In this document: positions 56,557 to 63,162 of the stretch, piece by piece
How positions within the stretch are numbered: position 1 is the first letter of the stretch
How the letters are laid out: every line of letters begins with the position of its first letter
NCBI RefSeq assembly: GCF_011047135.1
Contig: NZ_CP049255.1
Location: forward strand, 2,480,001 to 2,544,000
DNA: 64,000 nucleotides
Direction: 5' to 3'
DNA from: Microbacterium endophyticum
Lineage (GTDB): Bacteria; Actinomycetota; Actinomycetes; Actinomycetales; Microbacteriaceae
Translations under genes and position numbers: made by a program
The notes under the pieces: generated by a model
Told to the model about the DNA's origin: nothing
Seen by the model: the letters and a program-made list of their open reading frames with translations, nothing else
The model's database searches: none

Positions 56557-57630
56557 GTGGCTCTCAGCATTGGAATCGTCGGACTGCCCAACGTTGGCAA
56601 GTCAACTCTCTTTAACGCGCTCACCAAGAATCAGGTTCTCGCGGCGAACTACCCCTTCGCCACGATCGAACCCAACGTGGGTGTCGTCAACCTGCCAGAT
56701 TCTCGGCTGAACAAGCTCGCCGAAATCTTCGGTAGCGAGCGCATCTTGCCCGCAGTCGTCTCGTTCGTCGACATCGCCGGCATCGTTCGTGGCGCGAGTG
56801 AAGGCGAGGGCTTGGGTAACCAGTTCCTCGCGAACATTCGTGAAGCGGATGCGATCGCCCAGGTCGTGCGAGGGTTCGCTGATTCGGACGTCGTTCACGT
56901 CGAAGGTGCGGTCAATCCGCAAAACGACATGGAGACGATCAACGCTGAGCTGCAGCTCGCTGATCTTCAGACCCTCGAAAAGGCGATCCCGCGCTTCGAA
57001 AAGGAGATCAAGGGCAAGAAGCTTGACCCTTCGGTTCTTGAAGCGGCCGTTGCCGCCAAAGACGCTCTTGAGCGTGGCATCGTGCTGTCGGGCTCGGGCA
57101 TCGACCTGGCACCGATTCGCGAACTGGGCCTGCTGACGGCAAAGCCCTTCATCTTCGTCTTCAACGTCGACGAAGCCGTGCTGACGGATGCTGCTCGCAC
57201 TGCCGAGCTCGCGGCCCTTGTTGCTCCGGCCAAGGCTGTTTTCCTCGACGCGAAGATCGAGTCAGAACTCATCGAGCTTGACCCCGAAGATGCCGCTGAG
57301 CTTCTCGCCTCGACAGGTCAGGAAGAGTCGGGCCTTGACCAGCTCGCTCGTATCGGCTTCGACACCCTCGGCCTCCAGACCTATCTCACCGCTGGCCCCA
57401 AAGAAGCCCGCGCGTGGACGATCGGCAAGGGCTGGAAGGCTCCGCAGGCAGCCGGTGTGATTCACACCGACTTTGAAAAGGGCTTCATCAAGGCCGAGGT
57501 CATCTCGTTCGATGACCTGGTCGAGACCGGCTCCGTGCTCGAAGCTCGCTCGAAGGGCAAAGCGCGCCTCGAAGGCAAAGAATATGTGATGCAAGACGGC
57601 GACGTCGTGGAGTTCCGCTTCAACAACTGA
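56557..57630 (+). CDS. ychF: Redox-regulated ATPase/GTPase YchF (Obg family)
   Basis: 357 residues from the GTG at 56557. G1 GLPNVGKSTLFNALT, G3 FVDIAGIVRGASEGEGLGNQFLANIREADAI, and the ATP-specifying FVFNVDE region replace the usual NKxD. The C-terminal TGS-like domain includes GPKEARAWTIGKGWKAPQAAGVIHTDFEKGFIKAEVISFDDL and ends V-E-F-R-F-N-N. YchF binds ribosomes and hydrolyses ATP. Its last codons are the first copy of a repeat found five more times downstream, marking it as an integration site. No terminator directly follows it. Confidence 0.96.
   Translation: MALSIGIVGLPNVGKSTLFNALTKNQVLAANYPFATIEPNVGVVNLPDSRLNKLAEIFGSERILPAVVSFVDIAGIVRGASEGEGLGNQFLANIREADAIAQVVRGFADSDVVHVEGAVNPQNDMETINAELQLADLQTLEKAIPRFEKEIKGKKLDPSVLEAAVAAKDALERGIVLSGSGIDLAPIRELGLLTAKPFIFVFNVDEAVLTDAARTAELAALVAPAKAVFLDAKIESELIELDPEDAAELLASTGQEESGLDQLARIGFDTLGLQTYLTAGPKEARAWTIGKGWKAPQAAGVIHTDFEKGFIKAEVISFDDLVETGSVLEARSKGKARLEGKEYVMQDGDVVEFRFNN
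57601..57630 (+). repeat. Repeat R1: 3' end of ychF, presumed primary attachment site
   Basis: The last codons of ychF read V-E-F-R-F-N-N-stop; the core is GTTCCGCTTCAACAAC. Later copies use GGTTT where ychF uses GCTTC, both encoding Arg-Phe. The left arm of the recombination-like motif is poorly conserved here. Confidence 0.8.
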
Positions 57631-57769
57631 GGGTCGCTCGGCCGACGGTTCTGAGCAACTGAACTCGCACGCTTGATAGGGGCCTGCGGGGCTCGTTTCT
57701 CATCTGCTCACCACATCGATCAGTAGAGTATCCATGTCGTGATCGAGAGTGGATCGAAGGAGATCTCTG

Positions 57770-58411
57770 ATGGCTGATGATGCGAGCAGCAAAGTTCCGT
57801 ACCTGCAGGCGCATGGCAACCTGAAAAAGGCGCTGGAGAAAATCATCAATGCGACTGTGCCGCCGAAGTTCACACAGGACTTTCTCGCGACGACTCTCGA
57901 CTTGCCAGGCGGAGGTGCACGGCCGGTCATTCCGTTCCTCAAGCGAGCCGGATTCCTAGGCTCTGATGGCACTCCGACGGAAGTGTACAAGCAGTTCAGG
58001 AATCCGTCATTGCGTGGTGGCGCGGCGGCGCAGGGTCTAAGGAACGCGTACGCCGACCTTTACACGGCCAACGAGTACGTCCATGACGCTAACGACAAGG
58101 ATCTGAAGGGCCTCATCGTGCAGGTCACAGGTCTGAATGCCGACTCCAAGTTGATCCCGTCGATGGTTGCTTCTTTCAAGACTCTGAGGGAATATGCTGA
58201 CTTTAATGGGGGCAATGGGGCCCCGAGCCAAAGCAGCACCGAGGGGGAAGGCCCCAATGCTGAAATTCCACTCCATCTTGGAAATGGAGCGGAGTCTGGC
58301 CACGGGAATGAAATCCAGTTGGGCTATACGATCCACCTAAATCTGCCCGCGACCAGCGATATTGCAGTCTTCAATGCGATCTTCAAAAGCCTGAAGGAAA
58401 ACTTGCTGTGA
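57770..58411 (+). CDS. DUF5343 family protein (cassette 1)
   Basis: 213 residues from the ATG at 57770, with AAGGAG 6 nt upstream. The DUF5343 pattern is clear: PYLQAHGNLKKALEKIINATVPPKFTQDFL (about 9-40), then PFLKRAGFLGSDGTPTEVYKQFRN, a winged-helix-like layout. The final half contains GLIVQVTGLNADSKLIPSMVASFKTLREYADF, a Gly/Ser/Glu linker (about 150-175) and a beta-rich end. The base composition looks less GC-rich than the backbone. The next gene starts inside its stop (GTGA), so the two products likely act together. Function unknown; DNA binding is an inference. Confidence 0.82.
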   Translation: MADDASSKVPYLQAHGNLKKALEKIINATVPPKFTQDFLATTLDLPGGGARPVIPFLKRAGFLGSDGTPTEVYKQFRNPSLRGGAAAQGLRNAYADLYTANEYVHDANDKDLKGLIVQVTGLNADSKLIPSMVASFKTLREYADFNGGNGAPSQSSTEGEGPNAEIPLHLGNGAESGHGNEIQLGYTIHLNLPATSDIAVFNAIFKSLKENLL

Positions 58412-58998
58412 CGTCCATGGATGATTCTCTCAAAATCTTCCTGATGACGGCTCAACTCATCGAAGAAGATCTTGATGAGGTCGAACAGACTCTTGCCCTC
58501 GATCTCGGACGGAAGCGCAAGGCTGGGGCGGGTGAAGCAGCCGATTATTATCCGCAGATCGAGCATGCGTTTCGGGCCGAGGCGAAGGAGATGGCCCCCC
58601 ACTATGAGGTTTTTTACTCCCTCGAACGAACTATACGAACCCTAGTTGCAGATTCGCTTGAGGCATCGGACGGCGCAGGGTGGTGGCTTAATCCGGACCG
58701 CGTCCCTTCGAAGATCAAGGACGATTGTGAGTCTCGTCTGAAGAAAGAAGAGGACACCGGTGTCACCCTTCGCTCGGAGGACCCCTTAGACTTTTCCACA
58801 TTTGGCGAACTTGGCCAGATAATTACGAGCAATTGGGATGTATTCGGCGCCTTTTTCAAGAGCGAGAAAGCTGTTATCCGAATCATGGCGAATCTGAACA
58901 CGCTCCGCGGCCCAATAGCTCACTGTACGCTCCTTGCTGAAGACGAAGTCGTTCGACTGCGCCTGTCGGTGAGGGACTGGTTCCGTCAGATGGAGTAA
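58408..58998 (+). CDS. Swt1-like HEPN domain protein (cassette 1)
   Basis: 196 residues, starting at a GTG overlapping the DUF5343 stop. An acidic helical N-terminus (about 1-60) is followed by a HEPN-type domain: FYSLERTIRTLVADSLE, DFSTFGELGQIITSNWDVFGAFF, and LRGPIAHCTLLAEDEVVRLRLSVRDWFR, which contains an R-x4-H motif. HEPN R-x4-6-H sites are ribonuclease centres in many toxins and defence proteins. The Gly after Arg replaces the usual Asn. Paired expression with DUF5343 suggests a toxin-antitoxin or defence pair, not demonstrated. Confidence 0.75.
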   Translation: MTSMDDSLKIFLMTAQLIEEDLDEVEQTLALDLGRKRKAGAGEAADYYPQIEHAFRAEAKEMAPHYEVFYSLERTIRTLVADSLEASDGAGWWLNPDRVPSKIKDDCESRLKKEEDTGVTLRSEDPLDFSTFGELGQIITSNWDVFGAFFKSEKAVIRIMANLNTLRGPIAHCTLLAEDEVVRLRLSVRDWFRQME

Positions 58999-59116
58999 GC
59001 CTTGCGGCGCCCCAAGCTGCGTCCTGGAGAATGTGCGCGCACATGGCGGCGTGACTGCGCGCACCTTTTCAGAGCGCCATCGGCCGCTGTCTCTCTGACA
59101 AATGGCTGTCTGTAAA

Positions 59117-59149
59117 GTAACCCGGGTGGAGTTCGGTTTTGGCAGCTAG
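59117..59149 (+). repeat. Repeat R2: degenerate copy of the ychF 3' end
   Basis: GTGGAGTTC is identical to R1; the following 15 bp are diverged but still read as V-E-F-G-F-G-S-stop in the same frame. Its left side GTAACCCGGGTGG closely matches R4 (GTAACCGGGTGG). It separates the HEPN pair from the membrane-protein gene. Confidence 0.55.
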
Positions 59150-59186
59150 AGAACGTCCCAGCGCGGGGGAATCGGTTGTGTTGTCA

Positions 59187-59220
59187 CACGCGCAGACGTA
59201 CGTCAACACGCCTGCGCGTG
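59187..59220. repeat. Inverted repeat in cassette spacer
   Basis: CACGCGCAG (59187-59195) and CTGCGCGTG (59212-59220), perfect 9-bp arms with a 16-bp loop that itself contains GACGTACGTC. No T-run. It may be an operator or a folded recombination feature near R2. Confidence 0.4.
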
Positions 59221-59326
59221 ACCGACGGACCTACTTTGACGTAGCACTGAGCAACCGTCAACTCCGCCGCAGTCGACGAAGGGCGTGGTCCAAAGCGTCT
59301 GATTGATCGTGGTGGACGACGGATTT

Positions 59327-60232
59327 CTATCGGGCGAAAGTACGGATCCGATGAGACTCGTTCAAGTCAAATTTTTGACCGTCGATCGTGATGTTCCCCT
59401 GTGGCCAACTGCCGGTGCCGGTGCCGGTGCCGACGCCCCGGGCATCCGGTGCGCTCGCGTACATGTGCCCCTCGAGGCGACCGTCGGCGAGCAACTCTGT
59501 CCCGAGCCACAATTGAACCCGTTGTGAAGGGATACCTTGGGCAAGAACATGTGGGGAAATTTCATCAACTTCGCGAGGGTATCGATCCTGAATTCTCTGC
59601 TCCGATGGAGGAACGCCGCCGTTCGCCCGAGAAAGTTCCAATTGAATCGCGGCAGGCAAGTTTTCCGGATCCATGGACAAGAGGTCCTGGCTGACACGGC
59701 GTGCTCGACGGCCACGAAGCTCGATTTGTGGTTGCCCGAACATGAAAATTAGTGCTCGACGTCGGCGTCTCCACGGGATCACGGCATTGCGCCAGGTCAA
59801 GACTATGACTGCGCCGTCGGCGCTCGAAGAGGAGGCCATTCGAAGCTCATTGGCTCGCTCGTCACCGGACCACGAGATATCCTCGGAGTCGAATATTTCA
59901 ATGCGAAAGCTCTCACCCGGGTACAGCGCCTGCACCAGCGGTATCGTTCCATCCCCCGCGACTGGGCGCCCAGTTCGTGTAATCCATGCTGGATGGTAGG
60001 CAATCTGCCGCACGGGGCTCGACCCCATATTTGACAGCGTCCACGTGAACGATCGGGAAGGCGGCGCAGTGAATATGGAGCTGCGTAGGCGTCCGCGAGT
60101 GAGGAACGCGGAAAGTAATCCGATCAGCGTGATCGTGAACGCCCCGAGGGTCACCCAGTCGGCAACGTTACCGACTGTACGCTCCCAATCGACGCGTGTG
60201 AGTATCGGGGCGACCGAGTAGGCGAAGCTCAT
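59327..60232 (-). CDS. Single-span membrane protein of unknown function (cassette 2)
   Basis: 301 residues from the ATG at 60232; a GTG at 60238 is in frame but TAACCT sits exactly 6 nt before the ATG. The N-terminus (about 1-25) is followed by one hydrophobic helix (about 27-47, WVTLGAFTITLIGLLSAFL). A predicted soluble domain contains SIFTAPPSRSFTWTLSNMGSSPVRQIAYHPAWI and YPGESFRIEIFDSED, suggesting a beta-sandwich, then an Arg-rich stretch (WRRRRRALIF). A Gly-Thr repeat (GTGTGTGSW) lies near the C-terminus. No recognised family. Opposite in direction to the other modules except the Abi gene. Confidence 0.6.
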   Translation of the reverse strand: MSFAYSVAPILTRVDWERTVGNVADWVTLGAFTITLIGLLSAFLTRGRLRSSIFTAPPSRSFTWTLSNMGSSPVRQIAYHPAWITRTGRPVAGDGTIPLVQALYPGESFRIEIFDSEDISWSGDERANELRMASSSSADGAVIVLTWRNAVIPWRRRRRALIFMFGQPQIELRGRRARRVSQDLLSMDPENLPAAIQLELSRANGGVPPSEQRIQDRYPREVDEISPHVLAQGIPSQRVQLWLGTELLADGRLEGHMYASAPDARGVGTGTGTGSWPQGNITIDGQKFDLNESHRIRTFAR

Positions 60233-60238
60233 GATCAC

Positions 60239-60244
60239 AGGTTA
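60239..60244 (-). promoter_or_regulatory. -10 box for the cassette 2 membrane protein
   Basis: TAACCT on the minus strand, 6 nt before the ATG at 60232: a leaderless-type promoter inside the cassette. Confidence 0.4.
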
Positions 60245-60340
60245 GAGGTCCGCGTATCCAGTCCGAGAACGACTGCCCAACCTTCATACGAGTGCGGGCC
60301 GGTGTGCCGCGAATCCGGCGATCCTATGACGCTACTCGGT

Positions 60341-60374
60341 TACGGAACGTCGTGGAGTTCCGGTTTAACAACTG
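60341..60374 (+). repeat. Repeat R3: copy of the ychF 3' end
   Basis: Encodes V-E-F-R-F-N-N-stop. Core GTTCCGGTTTAACAAC. It shows perfect inverted arms CGGAAC (60343-60348) and GTTCCG (60357-60362) around an 8-bp spacer, like a tyrosine-recombinase core site. It matches R6 at 31 of 32 positions from TACGGAACG onwards. Confidence 0.8.
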
Positions 60375-60376
60375 AG

Positions 60377-60394
60377 CCTGCGGCGAGCCGCAGG
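60377..60394. repeat. Hairpin adjoining repeat R3
   Basis: CCTGCGGC (60377-60384) and GCCGCAGG (60387-60394) are perfect complements starting 2 bp after R3 and ending 3 bp before the Abi-like gene stop. It could end that minus-strand transcript, though no T-run follows. Confidence 0.5.
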
Positions 60395-60397
60395 TCG

Positions 60398-61201
60398 CTA
60401 TCTCATGGATCGCGAAATTCGGATTCGAGGAGAGCGGAGCTTCTCGCGTCTGCCGTCCGGACGCGACTCTAGGAGCATTGGTACATTCGACGAGCGTTCC
60501 AGCCATGTGGCGAGGTCTCTGTCGAGCATGCGGGCGAGTCTTAGACAAGCTTCGTGTCCCTGTTTCGCGGTCAAACGTTGCTGTTGTTGACCCGGGAGCG
60601 GGAAGCCTCGCACGAGTGGCTCGTGGTGTCCGACGCGGTTTCGCAGAGCATGAACTTCCGTGACTTGGCGTAGCGCCCACACGCGAGAATACTGGGCGCT
60701 GAGGTTCCGCGCGACAGCCCTGCCGCCGGGAAAGACTCGATGTAGCGTCCGTCGCCAATTGTCTTCGTAATCGACGTGTAGCCGGCGGGGTTCCTTCCCT
60801 GCATAGCCTCCAGCGTCGAACAAATCCTTCCAGAACCCGAACATAAGTCGCGCGATGAGACGACCGGAGAACTCCGGCGCTTGCACGTTTTGCCTGATGT
60901 GGCCGGGTAGATCTTCCCAAGCTCGGCCGAGCGCGTTTAGCGATCGTCCATCGAGCGGCATCCCGCCTGTTTCGAACCAGCGAACCCCGTGCTCGGAGCT
61001 CGCCTCTCGATGAATAGCGTTCCTCAGTGCCACCTCGAGGATCGCTATGTCGGCGAACAGTGCGACCGAGAGGTCCCGGTCCCAAACGTAGAGTTCCCGG
61101 GCGAGTCGACGGTTTCCCCCGGACTCGCTCAGATACGTCGCCATGCGGTCTGACGAAATCGCCCGATCGATCGAATGGGCCTCCTTGAACAACAAGCGCA
61201 T
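60398..61201 (-). CDS. Abi_2-like (AbiD/AbiF) HEPN protein (cassette 3)
   Basis: 267 residues. The Abi_2 pattern is seen in LARELYVWDRDLSVALFADIAILEVALRNAIHRE (about 33-66), RLIARLMFGFWKDLF and EVHALRNRVGHHEPL (about 183), where R-N-R-V-G-H is the HEPN R-x4-H site. Lactococcal homologues AbiD/AbiF give phage resistance by abortive infection, and HEPN proteins of this kind often cleave RNA. TAGCAT lies 7 nt before the ATG, suggesting leaderless expression. The last about 25 residues are Arg/Ser-rich. It sits alone between repeats R3 and R4. Confidence 0.82.
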   Translation of the reverse strand: MRLLFKEAHSIDRAISSDRMATYLSESGGNRRLARELYVWDRDLSVALFADIAILEVALRNAIHREASSEHGVRWFETGGMPLDGRSLNALGRAWEDLPGHIRQNVQAPEFSGRLIARLMFGFWKDLFDAGGYAGKEPRRLHVDYEDNWRRTLHRVFPGGRAVARNLSAQYSRVWALRQVTEVHALRNRVGHHEPLVRGFPLPGQQQQRLTAKQGHEACLRLARMLDRDLATWLERSSNVPMLLESRPDGRREKLRSPRIRISRSMR

Positions 61202-61208
61202 GGGGCAT

Positions 61209-61214
61209 ATGCTA
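61209..61214 (-). promoter_or_regulatory. -10 box for the Abi-like gene
   Basis: TAGCAT on the minus strand, 7 nt before the ATG at 61201, inside the cassette. Confidence 0.4.
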
Positions 61215-61329
61215 ACGGTGTAGTCCCCGGATCTGGCCTCTCCCGACTTGAGCGGTGAAGCCTCCGGGGTCCTCTTTTTCCTTTCGTCGGCACGTAGCGC
61301 TTCCTGCTGTCAGCGTGATGTCTTCCGTG

Positions 61330-61363
61330 ACGTAACCGGGTGGCGTTCCGGTTCAACAACTAG
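61330..61363 (+). repeat. Repeat R4: copy of the ychF 3' end
   Basis: Encodes V-A-F-R-F-N-N-stop (TAG). Arms CGTAAC (61331-61336) and GTTCCG (61345-61350) match at five of six positions around an 8-bp spacer. Left side GTAACCGGGTGG resembles R2. Confidence 0.75.
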
Positions 61364-61396
61364 GTATCTGTCGGGGTGCACGGAAGGGTGGAGCCG

Positions 61397-61732
61397 ATGA
61401 GCGGTTTGGTTCCCGAGCGGCGTGTGATCCGTCTCTTCCCCGAATACAGCCGGGACTGGCCACTGTGGGAGAACTCGACACCTACGTGGGACGTGGGCTA
61501 CACAACCACGCCAAAGATGTACGGACTGTCAGAGGCTCTGACACGAGACATGGCCAAGTGGAATGCACTCTGGGAAGCGAACTTCGACCCGTTCGAAGGT
61601 TGGAAGAGTGACGAGGCACGCGAGCAGTGGCGCGAAGAAGGCTTGAGCATCGTGACACGTCTCCGCGCTGAAGTCGCTGACTTCGCCGATGTGAAATATG
61701 AACCATGGCCGCTCGGTAGCTGGGACGAGTAG
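61397..61732 (+). CDS. Hypothetical 111-residue protein (cassette 4)
   Basis: Start chosen at the ATG 61397 with GGAAGGGTGG upstream; an in-frame ATG at 61376 is less likely. The protein is small, acidic and Trp-rich (YSRDWPLWENS, MAKWNALWEANFDPFEGW, REQWREE), with a PEYSRDWPLW start and a GLSEALTRDMAKW helix. I recall similar small actinobacterial proteins with no assigned function; an immunity-type role is possible but unsupported. Its stop lies 2 bp before repeat R5, so the whole cassette is essentially this gene. Confidence 0.72.
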   Translation: MSGLVPERRVIRLFPEYSRDWPLWENSTPTWDVGYTTTPKMYGLSEALTRDMAKWNALWEANFDPFEGWKSDEAREQWREEGLSIVTRLRAEVADFADVKYEPWPLGSWDE

Positions 61733-61734
61733 TG

Positions 61735-61758
61735 GTCGAGTTCCGGTTTAACAACTGA
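61735..61758 (+). repeat. Repeat R5: copy of the ychF 3' end
   Basis: Encodes V-E-F-R-F-N-N-stop with core GTTCCGGTTTAACAAC identical to R3. The left inverted arm is absent or diverged, and the end of the 111-residue gene occupies that side. Confidence 0.78.
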
Positions 61759-61905
61759 AAGTTCTCCTCGTCAGGTCTCCTTCCGCATCCACTCCACGCT
61801 CATCCGTGGCGAGTATCAGCGCTTCGGTCGGCTTCCTTCTCGCTTGACATTCGCTGCTCCGCCAGCGTGCTAGCGTTGCGGCCGCGAAGATTCAGTGGAG
61901 GCAAA

Positions 61906-62301
61906 ATGCGCAATCTCGACGGTGCTCACATGCGGGTGGCACGCCCGACGCGAGACATGGATGCCGCAGTTCGGTTCTGGGTGGATGGCTTGGGCATGAC
62001 GCTCGAGGGCCGCAAGCTTGAGGACGGCGCGCCGTATGAGGAGCTGGCGTTCGTGGGATGGCCGGAAGCTGCTTGGCATCTTGAACTCGTCAAGGACGCG
62101 ATGGTTACGCCGAACCCCACGGAAGAAGATCTCCTGGTGCTTTACCTGGCGGAACCCATCGATGACGCGCTGGTTGTTCGCATCGAGGCCGCTGGTGGTG
62201 TTGCTGTCGATGCGCGCAACCCGTACTGGAACGAACATGGCGTCACGGTCGAGGATCCTGACGGGTATCGGCTGGTTCTCTCGACTCGCGGTTGGTCGTG
62301 A
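61906..62301 (+). CDS. VOC family protein (glyoxalase/dioxygenase fold, cassette 5)
   Basis: 131 residues from the ATG at 61906 with GTGGAGG 5 nt upstream. Two beta-alpha-beta-beta-beta modules: HMRVARPTRDMDAAVRFWVDGLGMTLEGR (about 7-35), LAFVGWPEAAWHLELV, then a second half ending NPYWNEHGVTVEDPDGYRLVLSTRGW, the usual metal-side VxxPDGxxxxL motif. Possible metal ligands are H7, E59 (HLELV) and a late acidic residue, so an enzyme of glyoxalase or isomerase type, or a drug-binding protein, is possible. It is the only gene between R5 and R6. Confidence 0.85.
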   Translation: MRNLDGAHMRVARPTRDMDAAVRFWVDGLGMTLEGRKLEDGAPYEELAFVGWPEAAWHLELVKDAMVTPNPTEEDLLVLYLAEPIDDALVVRIEAAGGVAVDARNPYWNEHGVTVEDPDGYRLVLSTRGWS

Positions 62302-62384
62302 GGCTCACGCCGGAGATCTGCTTCAACCTCTGACCTCTGGCCGCTGACAGGGTGCGGCTGCTGGTCACTTAGACTTTATTCGGC

Positions 62385-62419
62385 TACGGAACGTTGTGGA
62401 GTTCCGGTTTAACAACGGA
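62385..62419 (+). repeat. Repeat R6: distal copy of the ychF 3' end
   Basis: Arms CGGAAC (62387-62392) and GTTCCG (62401-62406) around an 8-bp spacer, near-identical to R3. It encodes V-E-F-R-F-N-N, but the stop TGA is GGA here. It marks the far end of the array. Confidence 0.8.
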
Positions 62420-62435
62420 CCCCCGTCCGGTCGGT

Positions 62436-62499: not shown

Positions 62500-63162
62500 A
62501 TGGCCGATACTCAGATTTTCGAACCCGATGGCCGGGCCATTCCCTATGCCATTGAAGGGAACGGGGCTGCGGTCGTGCTGATCGCGGGGCAGGGGCTCAA
62601 CATCGATTCGCTCGGTACGCTCGCGCACTCGGTTGCGGCCGAAGACTTCACGCTCGTGCGGATCGGCTCGCGCCGACCAGCGGATGCCGCAGTCTCAATG
62701 CGAGACATCGCACAAGACGTGATCGACGTTATGGACCACCTCGAGGTTGCAGATGCCTGGGTCGGTGGCCACGGCTTCGGCGGCTCTGTCGCGCGCGAAG
62801 TTGCCGTTGACTACGCGGACCGCGTCAATGGTCTGCTGCTCCTCGGTGTCGAGTCTGCGGATCAGGCCGGTGGGCTTGAAGTCGCGCAGATTCCCGAGCA
62901 CCTGCGCGACGCAGATGTTGCAGAGCTCCAGGGCGCCGCGCGCGAGGCATCCGATCTTGCACCGTTGGCCGAAGGCATCCCGGTGCTCGTCATTCAGGCA
63001 ACGGAAGACCCCATCACGCCCGCCGCGAATGGCGATGCGCTGCAGGCTGCCGCGCCCGACCGGGTGAGCGTTGTGCGTGTGGAGGGCGCTGCGCATATGT
63101 TCCCTGTGACGCATATTGGTGAGGCATCCTGGGCCATCGAGGACTACCTCGACTGGGACTAG
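62500..63162 (+). CDS. Alpha/beta-hydrolase fold protein lacking the nucleophile serine
   Basis: 220 residues, with GAGAGGA upstream of the ATG. The fold is recognisable: VVLIAGQGLNIDSLG (oxyanion region, usual HG altered to AG), the nucleophile elbow VGGHGFGGSVARE (about 86-98) in which G-H-G-F-G replaces G-x-S-x-G, an acid in VIQATEDPITP and a His in VEGAAHMFPVT. With Gly in place of Ser a classical esterase mechanism is unlikely. It may be a non-catalytic or cofactor-free relative. First gene after the array. Confidence 0.8.
   Translation: MADTQIFEPDGRAIPYAIEGNGAAVVLIAGQGLNIDSLGTLAHSVAAEDFTLVRIGSRRPADAAVSMRDIAQDVIDVMDHLEVADAWVGGHGFGGSVAREVAVDYADRVNGLLLLGVESADQAGGLEVAQIPEHLRDADVAELQGAAREASDLAPLAEGIPVLVIQATEDPITPAANGDALQAAAPDRVSVVRVEGAAHMFPVTHIGEASWAIEDYLDWD

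Follow-up and report, generated by a model that had tools for sequence, protein, structure and literature searches.

A stretch of 64,000 nucleotides in the genome of Microbacterium endophyticum (positions 2,480,001 to 2,544,000 of the single 2,916,114-bp contig), here called the window, contains an array of small gene cassettes between ychF and a gene for an alpha/beta hydrolase. The cassettes are separated by sites that resemble the 3' end of ychF, arrays of the same kind vary in size and content across the genus, and whole cassettes have moved between genomes with a sequence switch at or within the motif GTGGAG. We consider it probable, at roughly 3 chances in 4 (0.77), that a serine recombinase provided in trans has inserted these cassettes, which are non-autonomous, at ychF; the locus would then be an integron-like array without IntI and attC.

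The features of the locus are, in order along the forward strand:

56557..57630, + strand: ychF, the last codons of which are the attachment site (attB/attL); homologues in 148/149 genomes of the genus, including the window genome
57583..57633, + strand: junction 1, the ychF 3' end, with a B-left half and a right half from the first cassette; central GT at 57607-57608
57770..58411, + strand: cassette M1 gene a, DUF5343, candidate phage-defence gene PDC-M34A (PF17278, 7e-44; PADLOC PDC-M34A, 6e-49)
58408..58998, + strand: cassette M1 gene b, Swt1-like HEPN, candidate phage-defence gene PDC-M34B (PF18731, 1e-8; PADLOC PDC-M34B, 3e-36)
59105..59147, + strand: junction 2, a decayed site (GTAACCCGGGTGGAGTTCGG) in direct repeat, with 6 mismatches and apparently one base longer than the other junctions
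59327..60238, - strand: cassette M2 gene, 303 aa, no family match in the Pfam or PADLOC searches
60328..60378, + strand: junction 3, matrix score 56.9
60398..61201, - strand: cassette M3 gene, 267 aa, Abi_2/PD-T4-5-like (PF07751, 0.0036, below the cut-off; PADLOC PD-T4-5, 8e-12)
61316..61366, + strand: junction 4, matrix score 47.7
61376..61732, + strand: cassette M4 gene, 118 aa, homologues near ychF or an array end in genomes G071, G053 and G094
61711..61761, + strand: junction 5, matrix score 39.5
61906..62301, + strand: cassette M5 gene, glyoxalase/YycE-like (PF22659, 2e-17; PF00903, 6e-10)
62372..62422, + strand: junction 6, the array end, a copy with a drifted stop codon (AACAACGGA), matrix score 45.8
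62500..63162, + strand: alpha/beta hydrolase gene, outside the array, starting about 80 bp past the last copy and adjacent to ychF at empty sites

The GTGGAG motifs of the ychF 3'-end copies were located at 57607 (ychF itself), 60352, 61340, 61735 and 62396, with a decayed copy at 59126. A search of the whole 2,916,114-bp genome with TTCCGSTTYAACAAC gave 5 forward and no reverse matches, every one inside the array, and the reversed pattern gave none. With a weight matrix, 5 forward-strand sites were identified in the window with scores of 39.5 to 56.9, and the top reverse-strand score was 4.5; the window copies belonged to the training set of this matrix, and the decayed copy fell below the listing limit of score 4. 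A first-pass annotation of the window had placed the copies at these positions, in one orientation and with one of them degenerate, had delimited five modules of 1.5, 1.2, 1.0, 0.4 and 0.66 kb, and had noted the absence of an integrase. The positions, orientation and sizes were correct, the repeat was confined to the array, and no gene for a tyrosine or serine recombinase was found in the window, the 4 PF00589 and 3 PF00239 matches of the genome all being located outside it. The annotation had also described the repeat as the ychF 3' end. This holds for the right half, but the repeat extends further, and its left half (consensus TCnGTGnCGnAACGTG) does not come from ychF.

To describe the variation within the genus, genomes are referred to by G-numbers (149, including the window genome) and individual regions or loci by L-numbers. 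The dataset consisted of 140 regions downstream of ychF from 139 relatives (G105 was represented twice), which together with the window gave 141 regions. Of the relatives' regions, 12/140 ended early at contig ends, and 13 regions were extended later. No region was obtained from 9 of the 149 genomes: G016 had no ychF match, and in G011, G023, G030, G044, G103, G108, G123 and G132 ychF was partial or near a contig end. On contig C80 of G105, the 2 ychF copies had equal scores and were placed in opposite orientation 43 kb apart (147238-148305 and 191164-192231), possibly as an assembly artefact.

A matrix inferred from the aligned copies identified 98 forward and no reverse sites in the 141 regions at a score of 18 or more; some of these data had also served to train the matrix, so the control is the contrast between strands. 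After extension, 48/140 regions contained at least 1 extra site and 26 contained at least 2 (counting the window and excluding the second G105 copy). The 112 modules identified in the genus had a median length of 1,092 bp, or about 1.1 to 1.2 kb, and larger ones were found in G043 (12 kb) and G036 (10 kb). The longest arrays were those of G148 with 11 sites and G026 with 12, the last site in G026 being weak and 40 kb away; the 4 sites in G118 include one overlapping pair. A strict pattern, GNAACNNNGTGGAGTTCCG, gave 30 matches in 19/149 genomes, all 30 of which were located downstream of ychF, on its strand and within 22.5 kb, whereas the backward control gave none. Counts obtained with this pattern are underestimates, as seen from the 19/149 genomes compared with 48/140 for the matrix. 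A looser 15-mer, TTCCGGTTCAACAAC, also matched contigs other than the one with ychF in G064 (C77), G111 (C2), G115 (C4) and G129 (C21).

In 24 regions from 23 genomes, all of them without array sites, a homologue of the hydrolase gene was located 26 to 224 bp past the end of ychF. The identity of these homologues was 38% to 61%, so that the case for strict orthology is strongest in G049, G052, G101 and G130 (58% to 61%, at 67 to 71 bp). The first-pass annotation had proposed that small cassettes accreted at ychF through a recombinase encoded outside the window, and had named 2 observations that would speak against this: a constant gene order without length variation in relatives, and repeats dispersed at random. 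Neither was seen, in that the number and content of the modules varied between the same borders, the regions differed in length, and the strict matches in the 149 genomes were all at ychF on its strand. The proposal is thus supported by the empty site, by the variable modules and by the transfer of cassettes with exact borders, to which we turn now.

Six groups of whole cassettes, 0.8 to 3.8 kb in size, were common to different species, to different genera and in one case to different orders, with 96.5% to 99.5% identity. The borders of these cassettes were on sites, the flanks searched did not match, and the switch occurred at or within GTGGAG on both sides. The cassette of G021 was found in Thermocrispum municipale (99.1%, 1.9 kb) and Brachybacterium massiliense (98.9%), module 2 of G038 in a Brevibacterium metagenome-assembled genome (MAG; 99.5%) and B. 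massiliense (99.0%, 1.3 kb), and module 1 of G038 in Timonella senegalensis (97.6%). The remaining groups comprised cassettes of G026 and G148 (97.7%, 3.8 kb), of G148 and G057 (97.1%), and of Arthrobacter humicola and Arthrobacter sp. ov407 (96.5%). Since Thermocrispum belongs to the Pseudonocardiales and the others looked up to the Micrococcales, one group of the six extends across orders. The Thermocrispum copy had a left flank of insufficient length for the search, but the letters of this flank differ. The groups were selected from 104 comparison rows after setting aside reciprocal rows, rows with matching flanks, pairs below 96% (such as G036 and Janibacter, 90%) and rows in which the same genome occurred in 2 collections (L340, L266, L291, L343, L280, L274, L323 and L292). 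Furthermore, G033 contained one 1.25-kb cassette twice in tandem with 99.9% identity. As judged from these comparisons, whole cassettes are mobile units. No whole-module nucleotide match to any of the window cassettes was found among the matches listed in the module comparison.

These data bear on 2 alternatives. The first is that homologous recombination or transposition, and no site-specific recombination, has spread the repeats and cassettes. Between close relatives, whole arrays could be transferred by homologous exchange across ychF, and G126 and G135, which share 2 modules, indeed have flanks that are 95% to 99% identical. However, the switch was within GTGGAG in all shared cassettes that were lined up, no reverse site reached a score of 18 in the 141 regions, and all 30 strict sites were at ychF, which makes this explanation highly improbable. 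The second, which the first-pass annotation had put forward as its own alternative, is a row of decayed integrative elements that were once autonomous and lost their recombinases in place. The decay of junction 2, the lost stop codon of junction 6 and the larger modules of G043 and G036 would fit such a history, but the median module size, the near-identical tandem cassette in G033 and, above all, the sharing of recombinase-less modules at 96.5% to 99.5% identity across species and genera with different flanks do not. Such modules must have moved after losing any recombinase that they once had. Since a row of decayed elements fails to explain recently moved cassettes without recombinases, we regard it as improbable, although somewhat less so than the first alternative.

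Recombinase genes were scarce in the modules. No integrase was found among the 25 commonest Pfam families of each half of the module genes (56 and 86 families were matched in all); the scan comprised 183/190 proposed open reading frames (ORFs), the remainder being the six window ORFs, which were scanned separately, and one 96-aa ORF in G022. A profile search of the 141 regions for serine recombinases matched only G081, and a phmmer search near ychF with the tyrosine recombinases of the window genome matched only G085, G070 and G082. The cargo itself was varied. A higB-higA toxin-antitoxin pair was frequent, with 66 matches in 58 sequences, some of them partial and 36 of them starting at a site (same-genome duplicates excluded); the name is based on reading of the genes and on matches to HTH_3 and HigB. 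A recurring 634-bp block at module starts was considered as a structural part of the element, but was rejected as it reads as the higB-higA genes. The PADLOC search covered 87/183 module genes and the six genes of the window, where 2 of the 5 cassettes (57770-58998 and 60398-61201) look like candidate phage defence by database label. Homologues of the 118-aa gene in M4 were found 84 bp past the ychF coding end in G071 (71%), 19 bp past it in G053 (66%), and in 2 pieces about 75 bp beyond the last array site in G094 (71% to 75%). The cargo may be adaptive.

Beyond the genus, a scan of named genomes gave at least 119 stretches; among the matches listed, 116, with L342 counted, were from Actinomycetota according to the record titles, and one (L336) was from a MAG labelled Proteobacteria. 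Also among the matches listed, L342 was ychF's own end and L346 and L361 look like chance matches in coding sequences; a plasmid match in Nocardia farcinica was dropped since the record had no annotated features. The ychF gene was present in 40 of the at least 119 loci (L342 counted), and in each of these it had the strand of the site. In a class-wide draw of 296 genomes, the strict pattern was found in 8 genomes (11 matches), representing 6/114 genera. On the basis of these matches, the ychF site is present in many actinobacterial genera, and the spread of the cassette system over Actinomycetota extends the first reading of the window.

In an alignment of 76 downstream copies, the right half corresponded to the ychF end, while the left half was conserved and of non-ychF origin (consensus TCnGTGnCGnAACGTGGTGGAG). 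In many of the named genomes from actinobacteria, the left arm continued to about 24 nt ahead of the centre, as for example in GAGGTTATTCGGCTACGGAACGTG. The half-sites span about 24 bp from the central GT, and the site as a whole is palindromic with a length of roughly 50 bp. If the sites are attP and attB of a serine recombinase, the arms of a cassette are expected to be mirror images around the central GT. Among the 141 ychF ends, right halves that mirrored one kind of left arm were identified in G124 (13/15), G043 (11/15) and G127 (10/15), and right halves that mirrored the other kind in G081 (12/13), G027 and G025 (both 11/13), and G067 and G138 (both 10/13). In the control tests for G124 and G081, a value of 12 was attained in 0/200,000 random draws each. 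Most of the remaining ychF ends had a right half that resembled plain ychF rather than the mirror of the left arm. The description of 2 kinds of left arm comes solely from reading the arms and from the mirror-image test, since sorting into 2 classes by regular expression failed, with 347/512 arms classified as 'other'.

An in-frame stop codon was present within 12 codons after DVVEF in all 141 ychF ends, and 12 different C-termini were observed (L039 to L178 plus the window): RFNV in 65, RFNN in 61 and ten other endings in the remaining 15. The end of the target gene is thus restored by the insertion, and the variable C-termini are apparently supplied by the inserted elements. In the 24 regions with an empty site, ychF is directly followed by the hydrolase gene.

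Genes for serine recombinases were located beside similar sites in larger elements. In 4 of the 9 viral contigs with a site (L200, L202, L203 and L205), a gene for a serine recombinase of 449 to 475 amino acids (PF00239 and PF07508) started 35 to 45 bp away, and its profile matched solved serine integrases such as that of TP901-1. Four of the at least 119 named loci, from Nonomuraea (L297), Serinicoccus (L301), Frigoribacterium (L305) and Brevibacterium (L341), also had a serine recombinase beside the site; the L301 gene is partial at the end of the locus, the called start in L341 runs past the site, and the search of the named loci was for serine recombinases only. In addition, a serine recombinase gene was located directly after ychF in G081, and one IMG/VR record contained an element of 9,754 bp that had its attL at ychF and a serine recombinase gene beside its attR. 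Among the matches listed, L260 and L290 had a recombinase fragment far from the site. In a tree of 38 serine recombinases, the ychF-type proteins clustered, requiring 3 changes compared with a mean of 8.1 after shuffling (0/500 shuffles were as low), which may reflect a single origin; 2 of the nine ychF-type sequences on the tree are partial. Large serine recombinases therefore seem the likely enzymes, a point that the first reading of the window did not contain. In G121, G022 and G115 (L211, L212 and L217), serine recombinase genes were located 3 to 5 kb from a XerC-like gene, which suggests another attachment site there.

Several observations weigh against insertion by a serine recombinase acting in trans, or limit how widely it applies. 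No extra site was found in 92/140 regions of the genus, and in the class-wide draw the backward control matched 3 genomes (3 matches) compared with 8/296 for the strict pattern, so that some single strict matches may be due to chance. The half-site symmetry in the complete 9,754-bp element was modest, 13/26 (shuffles, 0.0046). With scoring confined to the 11 best candidates of each genome and a threshold of E 1e-40, a serine recombinase of this kind was identified in 48/149 genomes, and none was identified in G004 and G005, which have arrays; the array-bearing genomes G148, G129, G118, G043 and G126 were likewise not among the 48. The only such recombinase in the window genome (at 2,266,640) was placed outside the ychF group on the tree. 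The enzyme tracked the arrays weakly and not significantly, being present in 21/48 genomes with array sites and 26/92 without (Fisher p 0.09), and in 15/26 genomes with 2 or more array sites. We take this pattern to mean that transient helpers acted in trans, which would make the arrays the equivalent of clusters lacking an integrase, but it is equally expected if the enzyme has been assigned wrongly. The cassette matrix matched the left arms of the phage sites to different degrees (random fraction, 2e-5 for L202, 1e-4 for L205 and 0.002 for L203 and L200), the fit of L200 and L203 being only moderate. Of the other 5 viral contigs, 3 encoded a tyrosine integrase (Mulchroom-type; L199, L201 and L207), neither enzyme was found in 2 (L204 and L206), and L205 likewise has a tyrosine-integrase gene next to the site. 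Finally, serine integrases do not normally act on hybrid attL and attR sites unless a directionality factor is present, according to an excerpt from the literature (PMC3783163).

The same cassettes could instead be moved by a tyrosine recombinase, either the integrase of a ychF-targeting phage or XerC/XerD of the host. Tyrosine integrase genes are located 24 to 175 bp after ychF in G085 (L059), G070 (L118) and G082 (L052), they occur in 3 of the 9 viral contigs and in the Mulchroom satellite as well as at the site in L205, and the inner arms of the site (CGGAAC...GTTCCG, with 8 bp between them) resemble a tyrosine core. The array-bearing genome G119 has only 2 PF00589 genes, which by score are like those read as XerC/XerD elsewhere. 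Yet what the distal copies in G085 and G082 have in common with the ychF end is limited to its right part (TCCGCTTCAACAACTGA or TTCCGCTTCAACGTCTGA), which implies a different crossover, and sites of the Mulchroom type are ychF-like over a long stretch without the left arm of the cassettes. Elements with a cassette-type left arm carry a serine recombinase beside it, and the conserved half-sites, which are about 24 bp long and arranged around a palindromic axis, agree with the 25-bp, pseudo-palindromic half-sites described for serine attP in the excerpt cited above (PMC3783163). A tyrosine recombinase is thus an unlikely mover of the cassettes, although the most plausible of the 3 alternatives; we do not rate it lower because the viral contigs split 4 to 3 between serine and tyrosine enzymes. 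In the Streptomyces satellite Mulchroom, a gene for a tyrosine integrase of about 250 amino acids (L208:6162-7027) lies beside a long ychF-end-like stretch, apparently its attP. In L205 (1386-4007), an element with a tyrosine integrase and one with a serine recombinase abut at a single ychF-type site, showing that elements are stacked at the same address by unrelated enzymes.

Insertion by a serine recombinase in trans could proceed as follows. Each cassette would be a minimal integrative element with one or two genes between the halves of a site of about 50 bp. The cassette circle would carry attP, consisting of a left arm such as GAGGTTATTCGGYTACGGAACKYG, the central GT as the putative crossover and the right arm GGAGTTCCG, and attB would be formed by the final codons of ychF (GGCGACGTSGTGGAGTTCCGCTTCAAC). 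The two would be joined by a large serine recombinase, provided in trans by phages or larger elements that target ychF, whereupon the right arm of the cassette would restore the ychF end with its stop codon. An array in one orientation would arise as insertions recur, either at ychF or at junctions already present. The inertness of hybrid sites implies that growth of the array needs attP x attP recombination or looser rules, and further cassettes may enter by attP x attP or by relaxed attL x attP recombination; the former is known for A118 and CcrA/CcrB according to the same excerpt (PMC3783163).

Among known systems, the arrays resemble integrons and clusters of attC sites lacking integrases (CALINs) in the storage of small cassettes in one orientation, the varied cargo with a frequent toxin-antitoxin cassette (here higBA) and the independent movement of single cassettes, and CALINs also in the lack of a recombinase. 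They differ from integrons by a fixed address at ychF rather than attI, by palindromic att sites and by the probable use of a serine recombinase. None of the 149 genomes had an IntI match (TIGR02249) above the curated cut-off of 265 bits; weak matches were obtained in all 149, with 91.6 bits as the best score, mostly to positions 245-301. The attC boxes (RYYYAAC and GTTRRRY around an imperfect palindrome) were at background level, being found near 2/507 sites, ychF ends included, compared with 1/507 random windows. Actinobacteria are reported to lack complete integrons in an excerpt from the literature (PMC9024848).

The staphylococcal and enterococcal cassette chromosomes (SCC/ECC), which are inserted at the 3' end of rlmH by the large serine recombinases CcrAB, share with the ychF arrays a target at a conserved gene's 3' end, the att sites of about 50 bp with inverted repeats, the remnants beside new insertions and, here probably, a serine recombinase, as described for SCC/ECC in an excerpt of PMC6222049. 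Dyad symmetry was seen in the ychF sites, with the modest value of the complete element noted above. The target gene and the enzymes differ, and no recombinase gene was found in the window, the serine recombinase profile having matched only G081 among the 141 regions. The ychF cassettes are also smaller, with one or two genes and a median length of about 1.1 kb, in most cases lack a recombinase gene, are assembled with up to 11 or 12 extra sites and are shared across genera, unlike the ECC of 32 kb with its own ccrAB in the same excerpt (PMC6222049). With regard to actinobacterial elements of the phiC31, Bxb1 and TP901-1 type, the helper recombinases belong to the same class by domain content and by match to solved serine integrases, but the ychF cassettes lack a recombinase gene and would use its sites in trans. 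Pseudo-SCC elements without recombinases occur in tandem. Phages and satellites with a tyrosine integrase (Mulchroom and G085-type) share the target gene end, but differ in the crossover or in the extent of att identity, and carry the integrase themselves. On this comparison, the ychF arrays work like both integrons, in the storage of single genes, and SCC/ECC, probably in the chemistry of insertion. No description of cassette arrays at ychF was found among the matches listed in the open-access literature, to which the search was confined, leaving subscription papers and preprints outside its scope; ychF is named beside a phage attB in an excerpt of a pneumococcal paper, which concerns another phylum.

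In textbooks, the acquisition of single genes by bacteria is ascribed to integrons. On balance, we lean slightly towards the view that Actinomycetota hold an independently evolved counterpart: a phylum-wide pool of cassettes at ychF, partly stabilized by toxin-antitoxin genes and moved by serine recombinases supplied in trans from phages and islands, with palindromic double-stranded att sites. If true, a cassette system with a different enzyme in this phylum would mean that cassette arrays have evolved more than once, and the site would offer a simple motif with which numerous mobile units of single genes could be found, for defence, toxin-antitoxin functions and small-molecule enzymes. It would also provide new pairs of serine integrases and att sites with a predictable chromosomal target, and the use of helper recombinases by non-autonomous cassettes would become testable.

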